A DNA stretch of 64,000 nt from Acanthamoeba castellanii str. Neff. Lineage: Eukaryota; Discosea; Longamoebia; Acanthamoebidae. How positions within the stretch are numbered: position 1 is the stretch's first letter; every line of letters begins with the position of its first letter. A model generated the notes under the pieces. It worked only from the letters and a program-made list of their open reading frames with translations. It was not told the DNA's origin and did not search any database. The position numbers were made by a program, and so were the translations under genes. The stretch spans positions 1,735,669 through 1,799,668 of the forward strand of contig NW_004457442.1 in the NCBI RefSeq assembly GCF_000313135.1, read 5' to 3'. Below are positions 12,449 through 15,430 of the stretch, piece after piece.

Positions 12449-14985
12449 ATGTGGGGCGCCGACAGCGATCCCAGCTTTCTACCGCTTCAGCCTTTGTTCG
12501 ATCTGCCGCCCTCGCCTCCGCTTGCTCCTACTTCCTCGTACTACCACTCGTTGTCGTTGTCGTTGTCGTCGTCGCGAAGTGGGTTGGCATGCGATGAGGG
12601 CCTACACGCAGTCGCTTCTGGCAGCTCTACGACCGCCAGTGCGATGCAGGACGTCAAGAGACCCCTCTCGCCCTCCCACTACGCGGACCCACTCAGCTGT
12701 GCACCATCGCCACCCCCCTGCCAGGTACCGCCCACGCCATTTCTTTACACTTAAATTTCTTTCTGTAGAAGAAATACATCAATAATGTTTGAATATCGTA
12801 TATTACTTATATATTTAGAAGGATGCGCGCGGTAAGGTCTCCGCTGCAAGGAGGGCGGGCACCAAGACCAAGGCCACGCGAACGAGAGCTTCATGCGAAC
12901 GAGACCCGGCCCCGCGCAAGAAGCCAAAGCTGGCGCCGACGGCCACGACTACGCCTGCAGAGTTTGCAACCGCCGCCGTCGGTATAAAGCCCCGAAGGGC
13001 CCAACAGCAGCAGCCGCCGCCGCAGACGCGGACATGCCGACCCGACCCGGACTGCTTCGACCCCATCCCCGGAACCGGGACCCTTGCGCCCGTTTGGGGG
13101 GGTGGCCACGACCCTGCGGCGCTGGAAGGTGCCGACGACGAGGTGGTCATGGAGGAGGGAGTCGTCGCTCACCCGCCGCAGAGCGAGAGACTGACTCTCG
13201 CCGACCAGTGCGAGCCGATGGTTCGCAGATGGACGAGGCTCGAACCCCTGCCGAGCGAAGACGGCGACCTCCTCGATTACGAGAGGGAGGAACAGTTCGT
13301 CGTGTTGTTGGCTGCACGACCCACGGCCCCGCAGGCAGGTGCCGAAGCGGCCGTTCGCGTGCGGGGTACGTGTTTGTTGATTGCGTGTGAGCATGTGCAC
13401 GCGACGCAAGATGGTACTCACGCCGTGATGTTGGTGTTGTTGTTGTTGTCGTGCTATGTCTAGACGAACAGTTCGCGGCTCTGGCGAGGCGGACGGCTGA
13501 AGAGGATCTTAGCAACGCGGTGGAGGAGGCGCTGACACTCGCCAATTGGGCCAGCGGCGAGCTTCTTGCCCTGAGCGAGCTGACCGGGTGCCTTGCTGGC
13601 ATGCCTTCCGAGGATTTGGGTGCGTATCGTGTGCTCGGTCGTGACTGTGTAGCGTGACCTTCCACCATCTGACGTTGCACCGCTTCTTCTCGTGATTGTA
13701 GACCCGAGTGAACGGACGAAGGCCACCAAGAACTTGGCCGCCCAAATCGTGGCGCTGCTGCAGAAAGGTCCCACGACACGATCACACATCAGCTCGTGCT
13801 TTTCCATCAACAGACGCCGCACGTCCACCATATTGTCCGTCCTCAAGGTACACCCGCACACGCCCAATCACTGAAACTTGTATTGGCTCGTCCGTGTTCC
13901 ATTCTCGCCTCACCTGAAAATTCTTCGGCTTGTTTGACGCAGGGCGTGGGACTAATCGAAGAGGTCCGGCTCCCGAGTTCGAAGGAAAAGCTCATCGTTC
14001 TCAACCAGAAGCAGATGGCCATCTGTAGCGACTTGCCAAAGTAGGCGATCCTTCTTTCTTGCTGCTGTGGCTTGCGCGCGCGTGTAAATCTGACTGTGGC
14101 TGTCGATGCAATAGGTATGTAACGATGCTGCACCAGCTCAAGGTCATGCGCGTGCGGCTGCTGCTCCACCTTCGTTCCCTTGATGGGGAGACCTCGCCTT
14201 CCGACGATATTCCGCCCGCGCGCCCGTCCCAGTACGACAACCCCATCGAGATACTCGATCTCCCATACTCGGCGGCGGCGCACGCGACACGGCCGCGCTC
14301 ACCGGTCGATACCGCGATGACGCTCGAGCCAACCCTTCCCAGAGCGTCGCCGCCGCAGCAGCCCACGGATATTGACGCCGCCGCTGCTGGCGCTGGTGCC
14401 GCATCGGCGGTCGTCGACGAGTTCGAAGGGGAACAGGGCGATGCCCTGGGCTCCTACGTCTCTTTCCTGCTCGGGGCGATGCAAGTGCAGCCGGAGGCCC
14501 CGCAGCCTCGAGTCGCAGGGTGCGACGAAGTCGTCACGCGTGAGCCCCTCGACATAGAATACGCCATCGCTGCGATCTACGACGACCTGCTCGACCAACA
14601 GCAGCCCAACCACCCTCCCTGGCTATCGAATCAAGGGAACGCCAACCCCTACGCCAACGACTTGGATCTGAACGAGGGCGATTTCGCCTACATCAGTCAC
14701 CTCAGCCACAACGACGCAGCGCGCGTGCTGGACTTGAACGAGTACGACGACGGCTACGATGTCGAAGGCGACGATGACATGCCACCGGCGAGCGCCTACG
14801 ATCGCGGAGCCGCGGCTCAACCGATGCACAGGCTCGGTGCCGACGCATCCGCTGGCGGGGCGTGGCCGGTCGGGAACACGGGCGAGCTGGACCAGCTGTT
14901 CTGCGAGGAGCAGATGACCCTGTTGACCACCGAGACCTTCGAGGACGTACTCCTGCCCGACGAAGAGAGCCCCCAGTTCGACTGA
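12449..14985 (+). CDS. Putative nuclear protein with E2F/DP-like winged helix
   Basis: Six exons (12449-12724, 12819-13365, 13464-13619, 13702-13847, 13943-14040, 14115-14985) sum to 2,094 nt, or 697 residues, with every junction in phase. Residues about 330-410 look like a winged helix: a first helix (ATKNLAAQIVALLQ), then a recognition-helix and wing segment (NRRRTSTILSVLKGVGLIEE) close to the RRRIYDITNVLEGIGLIEK pattern of E2F/DP proteins. The region before it is basic and has an NLS-like RKKPK (about residue 122). A Gln/Pro run and a long acidic Asp/Glu-rich C-terminus that could act as a transactivation domain are also present. The E2F dimerisation and marked-box regions are not obvious, so this may be another winged-helix family. 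ATG 12449 is the first in-frame ATG in an open exon; an upstream exon is possible. Confidence 0.6.
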
Positions 14986-15116
14986 CCGCCACCGACGTGC
15001 TGGTTGTGGTTCCAGCAAATCAGTACAAATTGTGTTGTTGGTCGCGCAGTCGTCGTGTTTGTGGTTTGTGGCGTTGTTGGGCAGCGGGGTGCGCATGGCA
15101 CGCTGGTACTTCGAAG

Positions 15117-15200
15117 GCTGTAGACCCGTTGGTCGGAGGTTCGATTCCTCTCCACCGGATTGTGAACACACCGGTGGTAGCTCAGTTGGTAGAGCAGCGG
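15117..15200 (+). tRNA. Circularly permuted tRNA-Tyr (GUA) gene: 3' half upstream of 5' half
   Basis: The 3' half (positions 31-73) occupies 15117-15159 and the 5' half (positions 1-30) occupies 15171-15200, with an 11-nt linker between them. Joined as 5' half then 3' half they give a complete 73-nt tRNA. The acceptor stem CCGGTGG/CCACCGG (15171-15177 with 15152-15158) has seven pairs, followed by discriminator A. Positions 8-9 are TA. The D stem is GCTC/GAGC with loop AGTTGGTA. The anticodon stem is GCGGG/CCCGT (one G-T), loop CTGTAGA with anticodon GTA (15120-15122). The variable loop is TGGTC and the T arm is GGAGG-TTCGATT-CCTCT. The C1-G72 pair is the known identity element of eukaryotic tRNA-Tyr. 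Box B (15138-15148) therefore lies before box A (15178-15189). No 5' half exists upstream and no 3' half downstream. Leader GCTGGT (15102-15107) complements trailer ACCAGC (15210-15215). A possible Pol III stop, TTTT, lies at 15241-15244. The joint at 30/31 differs from the usual 37/38. Confidence 0.85.
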
Positions 15201-15240
15201 AAAAAGATGACCAGCAGCCGCAACCACCTCCCTTTCGTTC

Positions 15241-15244
15241 TTTT
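15241..15244 (+). terminator. Possible RNA polymerase III T4 terminator of the permuted tRNA
   Basis: Four T residues lie 40 nt after the 5' tRNA half, at a plausible distance for ending a Pol III precursor transcript. Four Ts is the minimum for such a signal, so the assignment is weak. Confidence 0.35.
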
Positions 15245-15430
15245 CGCGTCATGTTTCGTCTTCATTCTTTGCTGGCCGAAAGGAGGAGAGCATGTACATC
15301 GATTTATTGAAAGATGTGGATGGTGCAGGTGCGGAGCGTTCTTTCACAGCAAGACCATTTCATGCGAAATTGAGGTCAAGCTCTTCATCTTCAACGCTTG
15401 TGCATCCATCAAAAAAGATCATCTACGTCT

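Follow-up and report, generated by a model that had tools for sequence, protein, structure and literature searches.

The window analysed here, a stretch of 64,000 nucleotides from Acanthamoeba castellanii Neff, is part of a 2.0-Mb contig in a genome of 38.4 Mb that is assembled into 250 contigs. The host is borne out by a TROVE protein of 690 residues, translated from the genome, that agrees at 100% identity and full length with a protein of A. castellanii str. Neff. Positions 15086–15232 of the window hold both halves of a tRNA-Tyr(GUA) on the same strand but in exchanged order, the 3′ half first and the 5′ half 11 nt downstream of it, as had been described in an earlier reading made from the sequence alone. 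Judged by its sequence and that of its relatives, this locus is probably a nuclear gene for tRNA-Tyr(GUA) in circularly permuted form, belonging to a group of at least four in this organism with a common leader and trailer. What carries this reading is the gene order, the cloverleafs, the existence of a family, the common joint, the complementarity of leader and trailer, and the conservation of part of the locus in a relative. The features of the Tyr locus are as follows, with the type of evidence in brackets:

15086–15115, + strand: conserved leader (four-locus alignment, pair counts, fold)
15086–15091 (GGGGTG), 15097–15099 (GGC) and 15102–15106 (GCTGG), + strand: leader segments able to pair with the trailer
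15102–15107, + strand: GCTGGT of the leader (sequence)
15112–15115, + strand: end of the leader, CGAA, a word found in all four loci (alignment)
15116–15159, + strand: 3′ half of tRNA-Tyr, positions 30–73, beginning at 15117 if the joint is 30/31 (sequence, ARAGORN, joint test)
15120–15122, + strand: anticodon GTA, in the loop CTGTAGA at 15118–15124 (sequence, ARAGORN)
15138–15148, + strand: GGTTCGATTCC in the T arm, the internal B box by its consensus, here upstream of the A box (sequence)
15160–15170, + strand: 11-nt linker from the 3′ end to the 5′ end of the tRNA (predicted hairpin with the acceptor strands)
15171–15199, + strand: 5′ half of tRNA-Tyr, positions 1–29, extending to 15200 if the joint is 30/31 (sequence, ARAGORN, joint test)
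15178–15189, + strand: A box TAGCTCAGTTGG in the 5′ half (sequence)
15200–15232, + strand: conserved trailer (pattern search, alignment, pair counts; kept in the relative)
15210–15215, + strand: ACCAGC of the trailer (sequence)
15211–15215 (CCAGC), 15217–15219 (GCC) and 15225–15230 (CACCTC), + strand: trailer segments able to pair with the leader
15241–15244, + strand: TTTT, probable Pol III stop (sequence; termination at a T run as described in PMC3978253)

When the two halves are rejoined (15171–15199 followed by 15116–15159) a full cloverleaf results, which ARAGORN calls tRNA-Tyr(gta), in keeping with the identity first proposed. C1 of the 5′ half pairs with G72, and the 3′ half ends in the discriminator A73 (15159), with CCA not encoded. 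The unaltered window yielded no tRNA with ARAGORN and no match to Rfam at gathering scores, which is expected because the gene halves are exchanged. A permuted-tRNA finder, a check that the sequence-only reading had proposed, was run as a script requiring a T arm, seven of seven acceptor pairs across the gap and a D arm; it marked a single place in the window, the Tyr locus, and none in 60 second-order Markov shuffles. The same script picks up the Lys-like sister locus described below but misses the Met-like and Trp-like ones owing to their D loop, and it therefore serves as a control for chance and not as a census. Downstream of the trailer the Tyr locus has TTT at 15233–15235, the position at which its three sister loci have TTTT. 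Upstream, an A-box-like word, TGGCACGCTGG, is seen by inspection; it is without the consensus A and reads GGGC... in two loci, and the idea that it might stand in as a substitute promoter element is offered as such.

The three sister loci lie on contig C87, at approximately 121.7, 146.1 and 161.4 kb, the Tyr locus being on C124. At every one of the four, the 3′ half precedes the 5′ half on one strand with the linker between the acceptor strands; leader and trailer are similar across the loci while the tRNA bodies differ, being called Tyr(gta), Met(cat), Trp(cca) and Lys(ttt) by ARAGORN once rejoined (4/4). A DNA search with 221 bases around the Tyr locus led to two further places, both on C87, and a query with the Lys-like locus matched itself only in the genome. 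A pattern for the leader found six matches in the genome, four of which are the family (0–3 mismatches), with 0 matches for its control, and a pattern for the trailer found four, all of them the family (0–2 mismatches), with one for the reversed-pattern control. Such searches would miss permuted genes with other flanks; the family numbers at least four. DNA queries with the rejoined bodies are insensitive, the Tyr query having missed the conventional tRNA-Tyr genes.

Two members of the family, C87:146037–146189 and C87:121698–121850, one of Met type and one of Trp type, are near-duplicates of one another. Over the 127 bases from GCTGG to CCAGC they differ at 12 positions, eight of which are in the linker, one in the trailer, three in the anticodon loop and none in the remaining tRNA. 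From the Met-like to the Trp-like copy, the three loop changes convert CTCATAA into CTCCAGA, and these are the loops of the genome’s conventional tRNA-Met and tRNA-Trp, respectively; a natural anticodon switch is a possible description of the pair. The Lys-like locus (C87:161367–161522, anticodon UUU) has the loop CATTTAA, with A33 where tRNAs have U33, together with an extra acceptor pair, a G before CCA and a linker with a CTTCGG hairpin loop, and it may be decayed or of altered function. All three C87 loci encode a CCA ahead of the linker, which in the Lys-like copy is displaced by one base to a later position.

The joint at which the halves are brought together lies within the anticodon stem, as had been proposed from the sequence alone. 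Joints from 26/27 to 31/32 were tried, and 29/30 alone gives five of five anticodon-stem pairs in all four loci. The joint first favoured, 30/31, also fits, but for the Tyr gene alone, just as 28/29 also fits the Met-like and Trp-like copies. Over the three independent bodies (Tyr, Met and Lys) joint 29/30 restores 15/15 pairs, which for random bases and a fixed joint has a probability of about 4e-7, a figure that rises once the choice of joint is allowed for but stays small. The anticodon-stem bases have other partners in the fold predicted for the uncut Tyr RNA, and the match at 29/30 is therefore not explained by the uncut form.

The folds predicted for all four RNAs contain leader–trailer helices of the type GRGGTG/CACCTC, GGC/GCC and GCTGG/CCAGC, the Lys-like RNA having a different pairing near the joint. 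The complementarity between GCTGGT and ACCAGC pointed out in the sequence-only reading is present at the Tyr locus, though it extends further than stated there (GGGGTG/CACCTC, GGC/GCC and GCTGG/CCAGC), while the second short helix suggested by the same reading, CTT with AAG, is possible locally as one option only. Its proposal that the linker closes into a hairpin with the acceptor strands agrees with the predicted fold in 4/4 loci. When the four loci are aligned, 97.7% of cells are paired and 11 of the 33 pairs have changed on both sides, figures to be read with the caution that the structure was derived from the same four sequences. With partners slid by 1–3 columns, the number of such both-side changes falls to between 1 and 4, and 0/500 shuffles attain the values seen. 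Of the 11 changed pairs, the T and acceptor stems account for ten and the leader–trailer stem for one; the covariation thus supports the tRNA stems across the exchanged halves and gives no more than a hint of the end stem. In the Tyr and Lys-like loci the helix adjacent to the joint, CAT/ATG, does not hold together, and the Tyr precursor has a modest fold energy (z −2.16, with 8 of 200 shuffles as good).

A trace of the locus in another organism was obtained by a protein search with a non-coding reading frame that runs through the Tyr locus. The one match (P0123, E 6e-6) is a hypothetical protein of 75 residues from a JGI metagenomic contig of 1329 bases, with 27 of 37 alignment columns identical. 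Its residues TGGSSVGRAAEKDDQQPQPPPF agree at 22/22 positions with the translation of the Tyr 5′ half and trailer, including the last base of the linker, whereas the linker residues before them and the stretch just past the trailer differ from the Tyr locus. Later residues, DLLKDVDGAG.ERS, resemble, by inspection, window bases near 15300 in a shifted frame. The contig looks like the same genomic place in a relative, a comparison that, by way of the P0123 residues, covers the 5′ half, the trailer and their surroundings. In addition, the protein gene just upstream of the Tyr locus has an 86% identical relative (P0001) on another JGI contig. The open frame at window positions 14071–14982, with a stop codon ending at 14985 and thus 100 bases short of the leader, has two relatives only at E ≤ 0.001 among 5.8 billion proteins, both from JGI (86% and 32% identity).

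Conventional genes for the same amino acids are present in the genome. A pattern built on the 5′ portion of eukaryotic tRNA-Tyr matched 58 places, ten of them with one common Tyr word. Of these ten, 10/10 are conventional tRNA-Tyr genes in complete form; their exons are the same, and the intron that follows position 37 occurs in two versions. The sequence-only reading had held that several intact conventional tRNA-Tyr genes, coupled with an absence of RNA reads across the joint, would speak against it; with ten intact genes found, the first half of that combination holds. Other conventional genes number at least seven for Met, at least nine for Trp and at least four for Lys-TTT, as found around the 63 best-scored of 805 candidates, these counts being lower bounds since the RF00005 search scored 63 of the 805. 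As conventional Tyr, Met, Trp and Lys(TTT) genes exist, none of the permuted loci is needed for decoding, and the candidate explanation of the Tyr locus as the sole, essential source of tRNA-Tyr was rejected on the ten conventional genes. Among the other tRNA-like places, a conventional-looking tRNA at C232:116027–116054 was called Tyr(ata) and has an anticodon stem that ends in an A-A mismatch, and ARAGORN gave C207:1400697–1400768 as Asp(atc), an unusual anticodon.

A mechanism by which the Tyr locus could give rise to a tRNA may be proposed. Pol III would transcribe a single RNA comprising leader, 3′ half, linker, 5′ half and trailer, the ends of which would be clamped by leader–trailer pairing, such that two cut sites would face each other in an internal loop, one of them after CGAA on its strand. 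Both sites would be cut, probably by the tRNA-splicing endonuclease, another nuclease in its place being possible, and the halves would be ligated at 29/30 to form a circle. RNase P and a 3′-end nuclease would then open the linker hairpin between the acceptor strands, and the product would add to the supply of tRNA-Tyr and not be its sole source. According to PMC3978253, known permuted pre-tRNAs form circles at a potential bulge-helix-bulge, with the splicing machinery as the most likely agent, and the circles are possibly opened by RNase P and tRNase Z. A strict bulge-helix-bulge at the joint was found in 0/4 loci, and the best partial scores for such a motif were equalled by 289–480 of 500 shuffles; the loci were not placed among the permuted pre-tRNAs spliced at a bulge-helix-bulge. 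What the four loci have in common at the joint is the leader end CGAA(T), with the leader–trailer helix some bases off. It is conceivable, although this is put forward tentatively, that the loci constitute an amoebozoan permuted-tRNA cassette, in which the leader–trailer stem and the CGAA loop would drive cutting and circular ligation at 29/30 without a bulge-helix-bulge, with Tyr, Met, Trp and Lys bodies.

With regard to the enzymes, the splicing-endonuclease family PF01974 has two matches over the cut-off in the genome (38.8 and 27.2 bits against a cut-off of 27), and a tRNA-splicing endonuclease is required in any case because the conventional tRNA-Tyr genes bear introns. A search of the genome for RtcB found no match, even though the tRNA-Tyr genes bear introns, while the same search matched in 9/14 control genomes; the ligase is of a non-RtcB type or was missed.

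A different explanation is that the loci encode Y RNAs of the YrlA type, in which case the RNA would remain linear, its leader–trailer stem would bind a Ro60/TROVE protein and the permuted part would be a tRNA mimic that binds effectors. YrlA is a bacterial partner of Ro60 with an end stem and a tRNA-like domain, as set out in PMC8394870, and this build resembles that of the permuted loci: both have the order T arm, closed acceptor hairpin and D arm, a leader–trailer stem and a leader word of the CGAAG type. In a permissive search, the Rfam model for YrlA (RF02553) matches the Tyr RNA across the full model with 44 bits (E 5.3e-9) and the sister RNAs with 24.4, 24.6 and 30.4 bits, and an RNA of YrlA-like build from a cyanobacterium, located near a Ro60 gene, scores just 41.2. 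All four scores are, however, below the gathering score of 69, and a control made up of two ordinary tRNA genes side by side (41.1 and 31.4 bits as tRNAs) scores 35.6 as YrlA; the YrlA score therefore largely reflects the order of the arms and does not by itself establish or rule out a Y RNA, and a plain YrlA label was rejected on the strength of this control. The leaders carry CGAAG or CGAATG after GCTGG, with CGAA(N)G in 4/4, and GCTGG and CGAA(N)G resemble Ro60 sites, but the canonical site, in which a bulged C lies beside CGA:UUG, is absent by inspection from all four leader/trailer pairs. In a scan of bacterial genomes for a YrlA-like D-arm word, 80 of at least 118 stretches were examined. 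A script recognised a T arm and acceptor strand upstream in four of the 80, and Rfam was applied to three of the four. The cyanobacterial RNA, from Dendronalium phyllosphericum (L133, 4892–5027), lies near a gene with Ro60 vWA and TROVE domains and has a 5′ strand GG-C-CGAAG opposite CCUUGCC, which fits the Ro60 site with a bulged C given in PMC4726728; it is an example of a Y RNA-like gene beside a Ro60-type gene that falls below the Rfam gathering score for YrlA. A further stretch (L179) reaches 38.3 bits as YrlA among tRNA matches, beside a protein with no Pfam match. The Acanthamoeba genome has two TROVE genes, a point in favour of the Y RNA explanation:

C143:62153–63394: TROVE-domain gene with MIDAS-like DVSGSM
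C114:420847–422237: TROVE-domain gene with CSIAESM at the MIDAS-like position

Among the matches listed for the C143 protein, 11 of 120 relatives carry PF25045, the vWA domain of Ro60; the protein itself, however, has no vWA_Ro60 match, the names given to the same 120 are telomerase protein component 1 or p80-like in 26 cases and Ro60 in none, and against the PDB it gave two weak TROVE matches, with Ro60 not among them. Furthermore, the Acanthamoeba loci differ from YrlA in their matching anticodon stems, their anticodon loops, the CCA of three loci and their eukaryotic host, with the Ro60 site not seen, and it is not evident what purpose matched anticodon stems, isoacceptor loops or CCA would serve in a Y RNA. 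The Y RNA explanation is on these grounds considered unlikely. Permuted tRNA pseudogenes, spread by rearrangement and giving no tRNA product, would accord with the redundancy created by the conventional genes, with the A33 and odd acceptor end of the Lys-like locus and with the finding of just four loci, but would sit badly with perfect stems and covariation, with a duplicate pair whose differences, across the 127 bases compared, all fall in the linker, the trailer or the anticodon loop, and with a relative that keeps the 5′ half and trailer amid diverged surroundings; this origin is regarded as quite improbable. The draft state of the assembly, in 250 contigs, is what could be said for an artefact or a local inversion of an ordinary gene, the latter having been raised in the sequence-only reading as a way in which it might fail. 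An inversion cannot, however, yield two halves on one strand, the same build recurs at four loci, the rejoined Tyr body used as a DNA query matched the Tyr locus only, and the relative has the 5′ half adjoining the trailer, leaving this explanation with hardly any likelihood. With regard to viral origin, the trailer pattern had 0 matches in viral contigs, and of ten long frames beside the C87 copies two matched histidine-kinase ATPase domains over the cut-off, three had matches below the cut-off and five had none, a set of neighbours that would neither show nor exclude such an origin.

A permuted tRNA gene, the reading preferred here for the Tyr locus, can be set beside known examples. PMC3978253 counts 34 permuted tRNA genes in six unicellular algae and one archaeon, with tabled joints at 15/16, 20/21, 37/38, 50/51 and 59/60 and linkers of 5–74 bp in the eukaryotic genes; a later preprint adds permuted tRNA genes of Auxenochlorella (PMC12633428). 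The genes of Cyanidioschyzon merolae, Ostreococcus, Micromonas and the Bigelowiella natans nucleomorph likewise have the 3′ half before the 5′ half, a short linker, a downstream T run and a cloverleaf, and in C. merolae CCA is not encoded, as in the Acanthamoeba Tyr gene and in contrast to its three sisters (PMC3978253). The Acanthamoeba loci differ from these algal and nucleomorph genes in that the host is a non-photosynthetic amoebozoan, that 29/30 is not among the joints tabled there, that no bulge-helix-bulge was found, that leader and trailer are common to four copies and that conventional Tyr genes are present. The archaeon Thermofilum pendens also has a permuted tRNA-Tyr(GTA), with CCA encoded as in three of the Acanthamoeba loci; it differs in its joint at 59/60, in being single-copy without another isoacceptor, and in its archaeal promoters and endonuclease (PMC3978253). 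In the green alga Auxenochlorella the permuted genes were found after the ordinary tRNA set proved incomplete (PMC12633428), whereas conventional Tyr, Met, Trp and Lys(TTT) genes were found in A. castellanii.

Among the open-licence papers listed in searches on permuted tRNA and amoebae, none with permuted tRNA genes of amoebozoans was found, in line with the sequence-only reading, which knew of none; in the A. castellanii genome paper, searched by term, ‘tRNA’ occurs in the references only. Within these limits of the literature, the Acanthamoeba loci are new in their host, their joint and their shared flanks, permuted tRNA genes themselves being known. They would extend permuted tRNA genes to the Amoebozoa and to a free-living heterotroph, with a joint outside the reviewed table and a flank module common to different tRNA bodies. 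They would also bring two questions within reach of experiment in a culturable organism: whether a site that lacks a bulge-helix-bulge is accepted by a splicing endonuclease, and what maintains permuted genes beside conventional ones. If the cassette described above is true, its resemblance to Y RNAs would point to a way in which Y RNAs that mimic tRNAs could have arisen from permuted tRNA precursors. For the annotation of Y RNAs, the control used above (L188, 3248–3360) is a false YrlA match across its two tRNA genes, and illustrates that an Rfam YrlA match of about 35 bits can be two adjacent tRNA genes.
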